A DNA stretch of 52,225 nucleotides from Acidobacteriota bacterium. Its GTDB lineage: Bacteria > Acidobacteriota > Terriglobia > Terriglobales > Acidobacteriaceae. Position 1 is the first letter of the stretch. Every line of letters begins with the position of its first letter. Below the pieces are notes generated by a model. That model made no database searches. It worked only from the letters and a program-made list of their open reading frames with translations, and was not told the origin of the DNA. The DNA is taken from positions 1 to 52,225 of the forward strand of contig JAJYFA010000008.1 in the NCBI GenBank assembly GCA_021790995.1, written 5' to 3'. The position numbers were made by a program, and so were the translations under genes. Shown in pieces: positions 28,923-37,251 of this stretch.

Positions 28923-28943
28923 TCCCGCAATCCGATCACGGTA

Positions 28944-28981
28944 CTCCCATCCTTGTGCGCAATCCCGCGAAAGGATGGGAG
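28944..28981 (+). terminator. Perfect 11-bp hairpin after mqnD
   Basis: CTCCCATCCTT (28944-28954) pairs exactly with AAGGATGGGAG (28971-28981) around 16 nt. It starts 22 bp after the mqnD stop. No T-run follows, so it may be a rho-dependent or mRNA-stabilising element. Confidence 0.55.
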
Positions 28982-29158
28982 GCCAACGCGCTACTCTTCC
29001 CGCTTCCATATCCTGTGCTGTTCGCAGCCCTCGCCGTGACATGGACCTTTGGGTGCCTGGACCTGCACGAAGGTCATCCAGCCGGCCTAACAATCTTTCC
29101 GTGAAACTCTAAATATTTCCTAATGCGCGTCGATACATCCGGCAGGAGCTACCTCTGG

Positions 29159-30142: not shown

Positions 30143-30162
30143 CCCAAAGGCCAGACGAGCTG

Positions 30163-30192
30163 GCCCCGGATTCTCTCTCCGGAATCCGGGGC
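30163..30192. terminator. Strong bidirectional hairpin between convergent genes
   Basis: GCCCCGGATTC (30163-30173) pairs perfectly with GAATCCGGGGC (30182-30192) around 8 nt, between the GGDEF gene and hemW, which converge. T-runs are absent on both sides, but the stem is very stable. Confidence 0.65.
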
Positions 30193-30232
30193 GGATGCTT
30201 CGCAAGCGGACAGGCTGAAAAACGCGAAAGCG

Positions 30233-31549
30233 CTACGTGGCGTGTCTTGTTTCCGCATTCTCAGGGAGTAGAAATTCCTGAAAGACTTCGTTTGAAATCA
30301 GCCGTCCGCGCGCCGTGAGCCGTGCTCTTTCGCCATCGAAGATGAGCAGCTCATCTTCGGCAAGCCTTTTTGCCGTTCTGATGGAAGCTTCAACGAGGCT
30401 CGAACCGAATTCTGTTCGCAGTTCGGCAACATCCACGCCGGCATTTGTGCGCAACCCCAGAAACCACGCTTCCTCGTGCTGCCGCTCGCGCGCGAGCCAC
30501 TCCATCTCGACCGCTTCTGCGCCGTCCAGATACACTCTCAGGTCTTCGGTCGTCGTCGCGCGTAATACCGAACCAACCGTGCCCCATTCATTTCGCGTGC
30601 CCTGCGAAATGGATGAGAGATCTCCACATTCCCGCTTTGCCCCCGATTCTCGCCCGATTGACGTACAAGCGGCAACTGCGGAATCGCGCAGCATAGACGA
30701 CGCATCCAGCCCCACGCCGAGATACGGCCGCCGCTGCCAGTAGCGCAGGTTGTGGCGCGATTCCATTCCAGAGCGAGCAAAATTCGAAATCTCGTACTGC
30801 CGCAGTCCGGCGCTCTCAAGCCGCTCGATGGCTCGCTCGTACATCTTCACAATCGCGTCTTCGCCCGGCACCAGTTCGGCGTGGTACCGTGCGCCGCCCT
30901 TGAGCATCTCGCGCCCCAGCCGCGAATCCTCGTCCACCTCCAGCATGTAGATGCTGGCGTGCGGAACCTCGGAGGCCAGCAGCGCATCGAGCGATTCCTC
31001 CCACGAGTCGAGGGTTTGTCTGGCCAGTCCCGCAATCAGGTCGAGGTTCAGATTCGAAATTCCGGCCGCACGCAGTCGCCGGAGGTCTGCTTCAACGGCG
31101 GCGCGGTTGTGCAGCCGCCCGCTCGCGTGCGCCTCGCTGTCCACGAACGACTGCACGCCCAGGCTCGCGCGATTCACGCCCGCGGCTGCCATGGCTTCGA
31201 GGGTCGCGGCGGCCAACTGTCCGGGCGCGCACTCCATGGTGATTTCGGCGTCCGCGTCGAGATCGAACTCCCCGCGCAGGGCTGCGAAGAGCCGCATTAC
31301 GAGATCTGGCGCGAGCAGCGATGGCGTTCCCCCGCCCAGGTACACCGTGTCCACGCGCTGCGGCAGCTCGGCTCCCACGCTCTGCGCCCACGCGCGTGCG
31401 CCGGTCAGATCGGCGATTACCCTCTCCACATAGCGAGCGTGTTCCGCGACCGGATACACCCCCGACGCAAAGTTGCAATAGGTGCACTTCGACCGGCAAA
31501 AAGGAATGGAAACGTAGACCCCAAGCGCATTGCCGGCCGAGCGACTCAT
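30233..31549 (-). CDS. hemW: HemW-like radical SAM protein (coproporphyrinogen oxidase-like) with an in-frame insertion
   Basis: The 438-aa protein has VSIPFCRSKCTYCNFASG with the radical-SAM CxxxCxxC, followed by DTVYLGGGTPSLL and NLDLIAGLARQTLDSWEESL, and the HemW-type C-terminal winged region. HemW is a heme chaperone often misnamed HemN. It is longer than the usual 380-400 aa because about 35 residues are inserted after GVGLDASSMLRD; the DNA there carries a 12-bp palindrome. The frame stays open, so the protein is probably made. It is divergent from the metallophosphoesterase. Confidence 0.85.
   Translation of the reverse strand: MSRSAGNALGVYVSIPFCRSKCTYCNFASGVYPVAEHARYVERVIADLTGARAWAQSVGAELPQRVDTVYLGGGTPSLLAPDLVMRLFAALRGEFDLDADAEITMECAPGQLAAATLEAMAAAGVNRASLGVQSFVDSEAHASGRLHNRAAVEADLRRLRAAGISNLNLDLIAGLARQTLDSWEESLDALLASEVPHASIYMLEVDEDSRLGREMLKGGARYHAELVPGEDAIVKMYERAIERLESAGLRQYEISNFARSGMESRHNLRYWQRRPYLGVGLDASSMLRDSAVAACTSIGRESGAKRECGDLSSISQGTRNEWGTVGSVLRATTTEDLRVYLDGAEAVEMEWLARERQHEEAWFLGLRTNAGVDVAELRTEFGSSLVEASIRTAKRLAEDELLIFDGERARLTARGRLISNEVFQEFLLPENAETRHAT
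30585..30615. repeat. Palindromic element inside hemW
   Basis: CATTCATTTCGC (30585-30596) and GCGAAATGGATG (30604-30615) pair at 11 of 12 positions around a 7-nt loop. It lies in the part of hemW that encodes the extra residues, suggesting a repeat inserted in frame. I did not notice a second copy in the window. Confidence 0.5.
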
Positions 31550-32949: not shown

Positions 32950-34674
32950 ATGAGTTCTGAATCTTCTGTTTTGGGCCGTTCCGGTGCCACCGTTATTCGT
33001 ACCAGCCTGTCCGGGCGCGACCTGCTCATGAATCCACGCCTTAACAAGGGAACCGCATTTACCGCAAGCGAGCGCGATACCTTTGGTCTGCACGGTTTGC
33101 TGCCGCCTCACATCGGAACGCTGAAAGACCAGCGCGAGCGCCGCAAGCGCGTCCTCGACAGCCGGCCCACCGCCTTCGGCAAATACTCGAACATGCGCGA
33201 TCTGCAGGACAACGATGAGACACTGTTCTATTCCCTCATTGAGCACAACATCGAAGATCTGCTGCCGATCGTCTATACGCCGGCCGTTGGCGAAGGGTGC
33301 CAGCGATTCAGCGAGATCTGGCGCAAACCGCGCGGACTTTTTCTCAGCTATCCCAACAAGGATCGCATCGAACAGATTCTTGCCAATCCGTTGTACGACG
33401 GCGTGCGCTGCATCGTGGTGAGCGACGGGGAACGCATTCTGGGTCTCGGCGATCAGGGCGCGGGCGGCATGGGGATTCCCATTGGCAAGATGGCTCTCTA
33501 CACCGCGCTGGGCGGCATTCCGCCGGAGCAATGTCTGCCAGTGCTGCTCGACGTGGGCACCGACAATGAGGCGCTGCTCAGCGATCCGATCTACGTCGGC
33601 TGGCAGCACAAACGCATCCGCGGCGAGGAGTACGACGGCTTTGTCGAAACCTTCGTGAAGGCTGTCGAGAAGCGCTGGCCACACATTCTTCTGCAGTGGG
33701 AGGATTTTGCCGGATCGAACGCGGCTCGCCTTCTCGATCGCTATCGCAACCGTCTCTGCACGTTCAACGATGACATTCAAGGGACCGCGGCTGTGACCAC
33801 GGCGACTCTGTTTGCGGCCGTCAAAGCGACGGGAATTCCGCTGCGGGAGCAGACGATTGCCATGTTTGGCTCGGGGTCGGCAGGCATTGGCATTGCCGAT
33901 TTGCTGATCGCCGCCATGAAGGAAGAGGGACTGAGCGAACAGCAGGCGCGCAGCCGCATTTTCGGATTCAATCGTTACGGCCTGCTGGTCGAGGGCGGCA
34001 AGGGGATTCGTACCGAGCAGCAGCCGTTCGCGCGTAAGCAAGAGGACTTGGCGGGGTGGAAGCTGACACCGGGAAGCCTGGAAAGTGGAGCGATTTCGCT
34101 GCTCGACGTGGTGCGCAACGCCGGCATCACGGTGTTGGTCGGCGTCAGCGCCCAGGCAGGAACATTTACCGAAGAGATTGTGCGCGAGATGGCTCGCCAC
34201 ACTCCGCATCCCGTTATCTTTCCGTTGTCAAATCCGACCTCGAAATCCGAGGCCGCGCCTGCCGATCTGCTTCGCTGGACCGAAGGCCGCGCGCTGGTGG
34301 GCACGGGCAGTCCGTACCCGCCGGTCGAATTCAACGGCAAACCGGTCCGCATCTCCCAGGTCAACAACTCCTTCATCTTTCCCGGCGTGGCTCTAGGCAT
34401 TCTCGCTTCACGCGCCAGGCGCGTCACCGGCAATATGATGATGGCTGCCGCCAAGGCTCTGGCCGCGTTGTCGCCGGCGCGCGCCGATCATTCCGAGCCG
34501 TTACTGCCGCCCATCGCCGATGCGCGCAAGGTGAGCCTGGCGGTAGCCGCATCCGTGGGCCGGCAAGCCATGGAAGATGGAGTTGCGAACCCCGTGGAGG
34601 AAGCGCCATTTGCCGAGATCCTTCGCGATTATGTGTGGGAGCCGGAGTACGTGCCGTACGAGCGGATTCCTTGA
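32950..34674 (+). CDS. maeA: NAD-type malic enzyme
   Basis: The 574-aa product has the long malic-enzyme layout. LPIVYTPAVGEGCQRFSEIW holds the catalytic Tyr region, ERILGLGDQGAGGMGIPIGK the malate site, and TFNDDIQGTAAVTTATLFAA the metal-binding Asp pair. MFGSGSAGIGIADLLI is the dinucleotide loop and FPLSNPTSKSEA follows. It oxidatively decarboxylates malate to pyruvate. The 203 bp upstream hold no gene. GAGGAG precedes the ATG. A clear hairpin follows. Confidence 0.93.
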   Translation: MSSESSVLGRSGATVIRTSLSGRDLLMNPRLNKGTAFTASERDTFGLHGLLPPHIGTLKDQRERRKRVLDSRPTAFGKYSNMRDLQDNDETLFYSLIEHNIEDLLPIVYTPAVGEGCQRFSEIWRKPRGLFLSYPNKDRIEQILANPLYDGVRCIVVSDGERILGLGDQGAGGMGIPIGKMALYTALGGIPPEQCLPVLLDVGTDNEALLSDPIYVGWQHKRIRGEEYDGFVETFVKAVEKRWPHILLQWEDFAGSNAARLLDRYRNRLCTFNDDIQGTAAVTTATLFAAVKATGIPLREQTIAMFGSGSAGIGIADLLIAAMKEEGLSEQQARSRIFGFNRYGLLVEGGKGIRTEQQPFARKQEDLAGWKLTPGSLESGAISLLDVVRNAGITVLVGVSAQAGTFTEEIVREMARHTPHPVIFPLSNPTSKSEAAPADLLRWTEGRALVGTGSPYPPVEFNGKPVRISQVNNSFIFPGVALGILASRARRVTGNMMMAAAKALAALSPARADHSEPLLPPIADARKVSLAVAASVGRQAMEDGVANPVEEAPFAEILRDYVWEPEYVPYERIP

Positions 34675-34698: not shown

Positions 34699-34732
34699 GT
34701 GAAAGGGCGCGACTTCAGTCTCGCCCTTTCAC
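34699..34732. terminator. Hairpin between convergent malic enzyme and kinase genes
   Basis: GTGAAAGGGCG (34699-34709) pairs exactly with CGCCCTTTCAC (34722-34732) around 12 nt. It sits midway between the two stop codons and could serve both strands. No long T-run is present. Confidence 0.65.
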
Positions 34733-34761
34733 GTAAGTGTCGCATTGATTGGTACCGCGCG

Positions 34762-37251
34762 CTACCCTTCGCCGGGCACCTGCTCCAGCAGCCGCTTCCA
34801 TGTCTTCTGGTTTCGTCTGAATCCCCTCTTCAGATCTTCGAGAATGCGCTCGAAGTCGGAGTTGGTGCGAAGGTTGTTCCATGCGGGATTCTTCTGGAGC
34901 CACGGGTAGTTTTCGTTGCCAAGATAGATGGCGCGGCGCAGCCAGTGCAGTGCCTCGCTGGCATCGCCCTCGACGGCGAAGTATGTCGCGAGCCGGTAGG
35001 CCATTTCGTTGTCGGCCTCGGCCGCGGCCAGGGTGTCGTCTTTGAGCAGCGCCGTGGCGCGTTCGCGCGCGCCCGCCTGAACGTAGCAGATGGCGAGCGT
35101 CGGCACGGCGATGCGCATCGAGGGGTCGTCGGCGATCACGCTTTCCAGGGTCTTGATGGCCGCGTCCAGATTGCCCACTCGCATCCGCTGATAGCCGGCC
35201 GAGGTGCGCAGCAGCGGATGACGCGGTTCCAGCGCCAGGCCCTTTTCCAATTCCTCGCCGGCAAACTCGATCTGGTTCTGATAGTGATACACGCGAGCGC
35301 GGTGGTTATAGAGCAGCGCCGCATTGGCCGGGTTCAGCTTCAGCGCCCGGCTGAACTCGTCCAGTGCCTCGCTGTACATCCCGTCGCCGCGCAGCGCGAG
35401 CCCCGCCACCATGCGCACATTCCAGTCATTGCCCGCAGTCGTGAGCAGGTTGGCAATGCCGTGCCGCGCCGACTCCTTTTCGCCACGCGAGAGCAGCATG
35501 TAAATGCGGTAGAGATTTGCCTCGGTCGATGCCGGATCGAGCTTGAGCGCTTCGTCGAAGGCGCGCCGCGCGCGCATCACGTGAATCTGTCCGCCAAAGC
35601 CGTGGCGCGTGTATTGCAACTCGGCAATGCCCAACCCGGTCCATCCCGCGGGAAACGCCGGATCGGCCGCGGTGACGCTCTCGAACAGCGCATGGGCGCG
35701 GTCGAGATCGGCGCGCGCGCCCGTGCGCGCCATGAAGGAACTCAACAGCGCCCGCGCCTGCAGGTATTTTTCGCTTACCGGTCCGGGCAGAGATCCGTCG
35801 CGCGCCGCGGCGCGCGCGATGGTGGCGCCCGCATGTGCCTGTGCCGCTTCAATGCCCTCTGCGGGACCCATCCCCAGCAATGTGGCAAAGACCTCGTTGG
35901 AGATTTCGCTCTGCACGGCGATCAGATCGAGCGACGAAACATGAATTGACCCGCCTGTGCGCACGCTTTGCGAGGTCACGTCGAGCAGTTGCCAGTTCAG
36001 ATCGAATCCGCTCCCAGAGCGCACAAAGCTGCCGGCAAGCACAAACCTTGCCAGCAGCTTTTGCCCCACGGCCAGCGGATCGAGTTGCGCGATGGGCAAT
36101 CGCATGAGCGCGCTCGAAGGCCGCACCACGAGCGATGGAATCCGCGCCAGTCGGGCCGCGATCGCATCGGCCAGGGCATAGCCATAGAGTGGCGCCGCTT
36201 CCGCCGTTCCCATGTTTGTGAAGGGCAGCACGACCAGGGAATTCTCCGTTGCGTGCTCGCCGGTCGACTCGCGGAACCGTTCCGCCAGCATCGAAAGCAA
36301 TCCGGTGGCGCGCTTCTCCGCCTCAGGGCCAGTGACTGGCAGGTTCGCAGCCACGTCGCTGGGAATGATGCCTGTCTCAATGCTGAGCGCCTTCATGATG
36401 GTCTTCAGCCCCTCGCGCACCTCGGCCGCCGACGCCGTGCGCGCGCCGGGATTTTTTTCGAGGCAGGCGAGAATCACGCTCTTCAGCTCCGGTGAAATTC
36501 CCGGCACGATCTGGCTCAAATCCGGCGGATCGAGGAACTGGATGGCGCGAATGGCCTGGAAATCCTCGGCGTCGGGCCGCGCAAACGGATGTCTGCCGCT
36601 GGCCAGTTCGTAGAGAATGACTCCAAGCGCCCACACGTCCGACTGCACGCTGGAGTGCCCGGTGACAAACTGCTCAGGTGCCATGTAACGGATGGTTCCG
36701 CCGCGCGCGGTGTAGGCGGTTGCGGCAGAGACATCCTTGGCGAGCACCGGACGCGCCGGGTCGAAGCGCGCATCTTCGGGCGCGAGCCGCCGCGCCAGGC
36801 CGAAGTCGAGAATCTTCACCAGGCCGCCATCAGTCAGCATCACGTTCTGTGGCTTCAGGTCGCGATGAAAGATGCCGAGGGCATGTGCCGCCTGGAGGCC
36901 GTCCGCAATCTGGATGCCGACCGAAAGCACCAGTTGCAGACTTGCCGGTCCGCGCTCGATCAGCTTGTCGAGCGGCTGGCCGGGAACAAACTGCATGGCG
37001 ATGTAGGCCTCGTCGCCGCTTTCGCCCACCTCGTAGATCGCGCACACATTGGGATGCTCGATGGCAGATACCAGCCGCGCCTCGCGCAGCACCGTCGTCC
37101 GCATCTGCTCGGCTGTGAGCACGCCGGCGTGCAGCATCTTCAACACCACCGGCCGCTGCAGCAGCGTGTCGTTGGCTGCGTAGACCACGCCGCTGCCGCC
37201 TGCGCCCAGCCGCCGCAGAATCTCGTAATGTGCAATCGTCTTGCGCTTCAT
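34762..37251 (-). CDS. PknB-like Ser/Thr kinase with TolB-like and TPR domains
   Basis: The 829-aa protein starts with a complete kinase domain: RRLGAGGSGVVYAA (Gly loop), VVLKM (Lys), GIFHRDLKPQNVML (catalytic loop), ILDFGLARRL (DFG) and RYMAPEQFV. From about residue 335 a TolB/FlgO-like segment, SLVVLPFTNMGTAEAAPLYG, occurs as in signalling TPR proteins. The remaining 350 residues are TPR repeats (for example SEALDEFSRALKLNPANAAL). No membrane helix is evident, so a cytosolic scaffold kinase is likely. Substrates unknown. Divergent from the retropepsin-fold gene. Confidence 0.9.
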   Translation of the reverse strand: MKRKTIAHYEILRRLGAGGSGVVYAANDTLLQRPVVLKMLHAGVLTAEQMRTTVLREARLVSAIEHPNVCAIYEVGESGDEAYIAMQFVPGQPLDKLIERGPASLQLVLSVGIQIADGLQAAHALGIFHRDLKPQNVMLTDGGLVKILDFGLARRLAPEDARFDPARPVLAKDVSAATAYTARGGTIRYMAPEQFVTGHSSVQSDVWALGVILYELASGRHPFARPDAEDFQAIRAIQFLDPPDLSQIVPGISPELKSVILACLEKNPGARTASAAEVREGLKTIMKALSIETGIIPSDVAANLPVTGPEAEKRATGLLSMLAERFRESTGEHATENSLVVLPFTNMGTAEAAPLYGYALADAIAARLARIPSLVVRPSSALMRLPIAQLDPLAVGQKLLARFVLAGSFVRSGSGFDLNWQLLDVTSQSVRTGGSIHVSSLDLIAVQSEISNEVFATLLGMGPAEGIEAAQAHAGATIARAAARDGSLPGPVSEKYLQARALLSSFMARTGARADLDRAHALFESVTAADPAFPAGWTGLGIAELQYTRHGFGGQIHVMRARRAFDEALKLDPASTEANLYRIYMLLSRGEKESARHGIANLLTTAGNDWNVRMVAGLALRGDGMYSEALDEFSRALKLNPANAALLYNHRARVYHYQNQIEFAGEELEKGLALEPRHPLLRTSAGYQRMRVGNLDAAIKTLESVIADDPSMRIAVPTLAICYVQAGARERATALLKDDTLAAAEADNEMAYRLATYFAVEGDASEALHWLRRAIYLGNENYPWLQKNPAWNNLRTNSDFERILEDLKRGFRRNQKTWKRLLEQVPGEG

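Follow-up and report, generated by a model that had tools for sequence, protein, structure and literature searches.

A 31-nt palindrome within the hemW gene of a soil acidobacterium is, with a probability of roughly 0.85, a decayed copy of a dispersed repeat family (F1) that came to lie in frame in a surface loop which HemW can dispense with, likely moved by a RAYT/TIRYT transposase. The window in which it lies is the 52,225-nt stretch analysed here (contig JAJYFA010000008.1, assembly GCA_021790995.1). The finding extends in-frame palindromic-repeat insertion to the Acidobacteriaceae, where two families, F1 and a second one designated F2, are tied to RAYT-type transposases.

The host gene (30233-31549, minus strand) is an open reading frame of 438 residues encoding the radical-SAM heme chaperone HemW, with the element inside it and the frame kept. 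Its product scores 238 bits against the NCBIfam equivalog profile TIGR00539 (cut-off 205), and the radical-SAM cysteines C18, C22, and C25 are invariant in the alignment. Comparison with 80 named relatives, all from Acidobacteriaceae or other Acidobacteriota records, placed the extra residues in the loop between GLDASSM and LRATTT (approximately 30566-30687, minus strand; roughly residues 289-328). From GLDASS to TEDL, the loop measures 58 residues in the window HemW, against a median of 32 and a range of 23-100 over the 81 rows (window included); the extra length is thus confined to this segment. An earlier note made from the window sequence had put the excess at about 40 residues, which holds against the shortest relatives but shrinks to about 26 against the median. 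The same note had proposed a surface loop and had named two findings that would speak against an insert, residues conserved throughout HemW and a lack of further copies; both were checked, and neither turned up. AlphaFold2, run on an alignment of 41 HemWs, gave a mean pLDDT of 83.8 overall and predicted the insert loop to be disordered, with values below 50 at residues 298-323 between two confident strands; solved HemW structures cover only the core, the loop being absent from them. Across the 81 rows, the loop is hypervariable and its residues are unconserved. As judged from the alignment, it is a fast-diverging segment: the window protein and its nearest relative (L106) are identical at 15 of 38 loop residues versus 316 of 394 residues elsewhere.

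The palindrome (30585-30615) consists of a left arm, CATTCATTTCGC (30585-30596), and a right arm, GCGAAATGGATG (30604-30615), which on direct reading are complementary at 11 of 12 positions and enclose a 7-nt loop, bearing out the near-perfect palindrome described earlier. By itself this is weak evidence, near the chance level, as the window holds five inverted repeats of comparable strength against 1.55 expected (sd 1.5, maximum 5; 40 shuffles). The hemW palindrome rises above chance because it matches F1. Covariance model R1, built from 55 aligned F1 copies of the genome that encodes L106 (G019) with no hemW copy included, matches its full 48 nt at 30577-30624 (minus strand) with 33.1 bits (E = 3e-5 across the whole own genome; E = 8e-7 in a small search), which supports the earlier reading of an inserted repeat. 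This match takes in the TGGGGCAC tag flanking the palindrome, and the element hence exceeds the 31 nt first noticed. Exact searches with CATTTCGC and a BLAST search with the 161-bp region had returned the hemW copy as the only convincing match in the own genome; that apparent lack of other copies was overturned by the covariance model, the simpler searches having misled because the arms vary by compensatory change. With R1, about 41 distinct copies were found in the own genome (E <0.01, both-strand duplicates removed). Elsewhere in the window, there is a weak intergenic F1-like copy at 28942-28982 (plus strand; 18.9 bits, E = 0.011 in the small search and 0.4 genome-wide) and an F2 copy at 34701-34749 (plus strand; 24.1 bits, E = 3e-4, or 0.003 genome-wide) just downstream of an ORF ending at 34674. 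Strong palindromes also occur at 1916-1948 (with weak F1 likeness, 14 bits), at 30162-30193 downstream of hemW, where it may be a terminator, and at 36027-36059.

The build of the family shows in a comparison of the window hemW with that of its nearest relative. L106, 76% identical at the protein level, carries F1 at the same position and reads CTTTTCGC-AAAGAGC-GCGAAAAGGATGGGGCACCC, versus CATTTCGC-AGGGCAC-GCGAAATGAATGGGGCAC in the window; between the stem pairs CTTTTCGC/GCGAAAAG and CATTTCGC/GCGAAATG both sides have changed and still pair, and the TGGGGCAC tag beside the stem is common to both. Searching congeners for a pattern with this tag gave copies by the dozen. Across 0.63 Mb of G019, a palindrome precedes 87 of 136 TGGGGCAC sites (64%), versus 0-7% for control motifs, and at least ten different arms stand before the tag (e.g., CCTTTCGC, CCTTTTCGC, CCTTTCCGC, CCATTCGC, and CCTAGCCGC). 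F1 is laid out as constant ends, TCCCA...TGGGGCAC, around a changing but self-complementary stem, in which pair 15-38 covaries TA/AT (in an alignment preselected for a paired core). F1 is a short palindromic repeat, dispersed in many copies, whose stem is kept by compensatory change, as in REP/RAYT systems. At E <= 1e-5, it was detected in all 29 same-genus genomes (2 to >100 copies per genome) and in 1 of 19 genomes outside the genus, the other 18 having none. Its 5' start is GTGC in 29 of 55 copies, GTGG in 12, and GTAG in none, the GTGG lying three bases off the stem; CGTC is absent from either end of the consensus of the 55-copy alignment. Many G019 copies sit at the centre of a longer element bounded by AGGTCTCTGACCGC...GCGGTCAGAGACCT. 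One example, L194:9826-9875 with its flanks, ends in AGGTCTCTGACCGCATGAATT and GCGGTCAGAGACCT and looks like a MITE built around F1.

F1 adjoins RAYT-type genes in four relatives and lies on both sides of the gene in three. The RAYT gene of G019 (L203:3741-4262, minus strand; NF047646, 117 bits, cut-off 80) has inverted F1 copies on both sides; comparison of positions likewise placed F1 in opposite orientation on both sides of the Y1-transposase genes G017:C130 and G011:C4, and F1 adjoins that of G003:C286. The RAYT gene seen in the own genome (L280:2217-2837, minus strand; NF047646, 112 bits) is flanked by inverted F2, not F1. Hence, copies of each family flank a REP-associated tyrosine transposase gene, F1 at L203 and F2 at L280. 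We class F1 as a REP/TIR-type non-autonomous element of this Acidobacteriaceae genus, and not as a Rickettsia RPE, because it combines a constant tag, variable self-complementary stems, and RAYT adjacency, all read from sequence; we infer that a RAYT/TIRYT transposase is its likely mover. As a separate observation, F2 copies at L280:2274-2383 extend into this RAYT gene at the 3' end of its coding sequence, which makes the tail of the transposase itself repeat-derived.

The same HemW loop has received repeats in several relatives. By model score, F1 is present there in the window, L106, L167, and L124 (the last at only E = 0.006 to 0.02), and a decayed F1 can be made out by eye in L108. Six relatives carry F2 instead: L107, L169, and L170 in one orientation, L125 and L110 in the other, and G016. 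On a HemW tree computed without the loop, the F2 rows require five changes, falling in five separate places, whereas all F1 rows lie within one 10-row clade, for which one or two gains, with later loss or replacement, would be enough. L107, which has F2, branches next to the F1-bearing window and L106, a placement suggesting that one repeat replaced the other, or that the first was lost before another inserted. The loop in the window probably contains two tandem elements: the F1 unit of L167, and likewise the decayed units of L108 and L106, align with the first half of the insert, a stretch (30625-30687, minus strand) that no longer scores with the F1 model and would represent a badly decayed first unit. 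No pair of empty and filled sites that would display the exact insertion joint or a target preference was found in very close strains. Two further HemW genes show unusual arrangements. In L124:2872-2949 (hemW of JOPF070), F1 is split by the repeat-like GCAGGTCCTTCGACTGCGCTCAG with the frame kept, perhaps a nested insertion; in L026 (and in L129, which has the same HemW), a palindrome-like insert, GGGGTCCCCGCGGACAGGTCTTCGTCCGTGGGG, occupies a second site a few residues on, after LEGPEP.

Housekeeping proteins other than HemW also host these repeats. F2, a repeat built of two hairpins (GAAAGGGCACGACTTNAGTCGTGCCG...GGGGCTTTAGCCCCTGAG), is represented by about 75 copies in the own genome. There, besides hemW, the genes for butyrate kinase, PriA, RecG, and a UbiD-type menaquinone decarboxylase hold in-frame F1, and those for a PcrA/UvrD-type helicase, AlaS, ArgS, and UvrC hold in-frame F2, which amounts to 5 of about 46 F1 copies (hemW included) and 4 of 54 surveyed F2 copies. 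In-frame copies were recognised from sequence further from the element; a strict codon-score filter was dropped since it missed even hemW, the insert itself scoring non-coding. Three candidate ORFs (L247, L192, and L210) were rejected from their translations as likely antisense or spurious, L272 stayed a candidate, and none of 56 strict F1 copies in G019 was convincing as an insertion inside a gene. G003 carries F1 and F2 in UvrC, as well as F1 at the UvrA C-terminus. At the RecG site, 13 congeners lack F1, and the own-genome RecG is the sole locus that scores; in G004, the same RecG loop holds a tandem pair of a different tagged palindrome, CCCAGGTC...GACCTGGGGCACCC, which may belong with F1 in one superfamily and differ from it in the stem. 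The second hairpin of F2, read from the consensus, has one open forward frame, the other two containing TAG and TGA; forward in-frame F2 copies therefore encode GHDFSRA-like peptides.

Repeats of this kind are already known, both as intragenic REPs and as RAYT-flanking repeats of acidobacteria. The earlier note had held in-frame palindromes to be rare outside Rickettsia; this is corrected by Di Nocera et al. (2013, PMC3733652), who list them in several species and describe REPs inside ORFs, many of them replication and repair genes (uvrA, uvrB, UvrD-type helicases) and tRNA synthetases. Like F1 and F2, those intragenic REPs are short palindromes lying in frame in housekeeping proteins, in places as tandem units, and the overlap in hosts (UvrABC proteins, a UvrD-type helicase, tRNA synthetases) is striking; the published families are tagged GTAG or CGTC, whereas F1 has no GTAG start and bears its constant tag, TGGGGCAC, on the other side. 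From the same phylum, tyrosine transposases flanked by inverted repeats (TIRYT) have been reported, with TIRYT/TIRtron hosts including Koribacter, Terriglobus, and Acidobacterium and with some repeats also dispersed (PMC3733652). F1 and F2 share this layout of inverted repeats around an HUH tyrosine transposase gene; the published GGGGWSAS motif, present in some TIRs only, is unlike GGGGCACG of F1, the comparison being at the level of the motif.

The REPtron/TnpA-REP systems of subclass 2.4, in which REPs lie within the transposase gene (PMC6006769), share with the present repeats a frame-keeping insertion into a coding gene, and F2, too, reaches into a RAYT gene, at its 3' end. Their REPs have a canonical 5' GT[AG]G at the hairpin foot, which F1 and F2 lack (GTGG being a minority start in F1, set off from the stem), and F1 does not carry CGTC at one end as CGTC REPs do. 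Lacking GTAG, GT[AG]G, CGTC, and GGGGWSAS, F1 is not filed in any of those tagged families, and would work like them. The likeness to the palindromic elements of Rickettsia that had been suggested is that both are palindromic repeats translated in frame in diverse proteins; the organism is different, R. conorii RPE-4 and RPE-6 are CGTC-type REPs without an associated RAYT (PMC3733652), and F1 and F2 adjoin RAYTs. Rickettsia RPEs, set apart here by their description, serve only as an analogy. A literature search covering few subscription journals and no supplements found no paper on in-frame repeats in acidobacterial proteins; both F1 as a family and the group that hosts it appear to be new.

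A history of the hemW insert can be proposed from the repeat family and its distribution across the genus, the compensatory stem changes, the neighbouring RAYT genes, the in-frame location, and the sister insertions in other genes, all computed here, from which we infer mobilisation by RAYT, neutrality, and the order of events. RAYT/TIRYT would act as an HUH single-strand transposase that recognises, in single-stranded DNA, a hairpin together with the constant tag beside it, much as TnpA-REP acts on hairpins in such DNA (PMC6006769). F1, with its constant tag and self-complementary stem, matches what such a substrate should look like, and its location around RAYT genes agrees with a REPtron-like unit. 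For most insertions, intergenic sites alone would be tolerable, and those within genes would survive only where the length is a multiple of three, no stop falls in frame, and the loop is flexible; survivors would then drift. F1 would have entered hemW most simply in the common ancestor of the own genome and its nearest relatives, probably landing on top of an older, more decayed copy. The copy in hemW, itself decayed, would now be translated as about 16 amino acids, GDLSSISQGTRNEWGT.

Ordinary processes could in principle produce a long loop with an incidental palindrome. The HemW loop varies from 23 to 100 residues even without repeats, L136 shows a plain tandem duplication and L183 low-complexity repeats, and the number of comparable palindromes in the window equals the maximum among the shuffles; slippage, duplication, and drift might thus seem sufficient. 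The match to an independently built model, flanking tag included, largely refutes this explanation; F1 at the same place in the nearest relative also speaks against it, and unrelated genomes lack R1 matches of similar score and frequency. We consider a chance palindrome very improbable. Selection for a functional HemW extension, such as a partner-binding or heme-site segment in which the palindrome is incidental, would account for the long loops common to the nearest relatives and for the open frame. It is hardly compatible with the low loop identity between the window and L106, with relatives that swap the segment for unrelated F2-encoded residues, or with the predicted disorder, and is very unlikely.

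Since REPs commonly appear in transcripts, where they are able to stabilise the mRNA or terminate transcription (PMC3733652, PMC6006769), and since the stems in the window and in L106 have both stayed paired, the element might instead serve as a hairpin in the hemW mRNA (stability, attenuation), its coding capacity being merely tolerated. The hairpin is not followed by a T run, lies late in the gene, and is missing from the HemW genes of most relatives, leaving such a role as improbable as a chance origin. Spread of the inserts by recombination of hemW alleles, in place of independent insertion, receives slightly more weight and is still improbable: the confinement of F1 to one 10-row clade and the UvrC F2 at the same site in two genomes speak for it, whereas F2 occupies five separate places on the HemW tree in both orientations, and both families occur at many sites outside hemW. 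In-frame insertion of a probably mobile F1 copy is the preferred reading.

That relatives hold other palindromes in the same loop suggests that small mobile repeats repeatedly write new stretches of protein here. One HemW loop with at least two unrelated families in full, decayed, and absent states offers a natural series from mobile repeat to protein sequence, and the aspect that merits further pursuit is how unrelated repeats have invaded a single loop again and again. A broader proposal, that in this genus a few permissive loops of essential proteins (HemW, RecG, UvrC, tRNA synthetases) are hit over and over, in either orientation, by several unrelated palindromic families, which thereby go on supplying new protein segments, some of them maybe kept by selection, is speculative and we hold it to be rather unlikely. 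The question raised is why replication, repair, and tRNA-charging genes recur as hosts. For annotators, the data are a warning that an unusual loop in these genomes can consist of mobile DNA.

Several smaller observations concern these other loops and repeats. The tandem copies of CCCAGGTC...GACCTGGGGCACCC in G004 recG (L348:3942-4079) are in frame and have different stems, and the HemW loop of L137 and L143 contains a similar palindrome, CCAGGTCCGG...CGGACCTGG. In the uvrC genes of L333 (G000) and L249 (G003), F2 is found shortly before the same conserved PSLxLIDGGLGQL segment, a shared position that reflects either an old shared insertion or a second hotspot. Finally, a GTCAGCGAGTCAGCAAGTC-like repeat seems to encode an ASRQV-like stretch both in the own-genome ArgS (L309), beside F2, and in the HemW loop of L115, and it also occurs beside F1 copies in G019.
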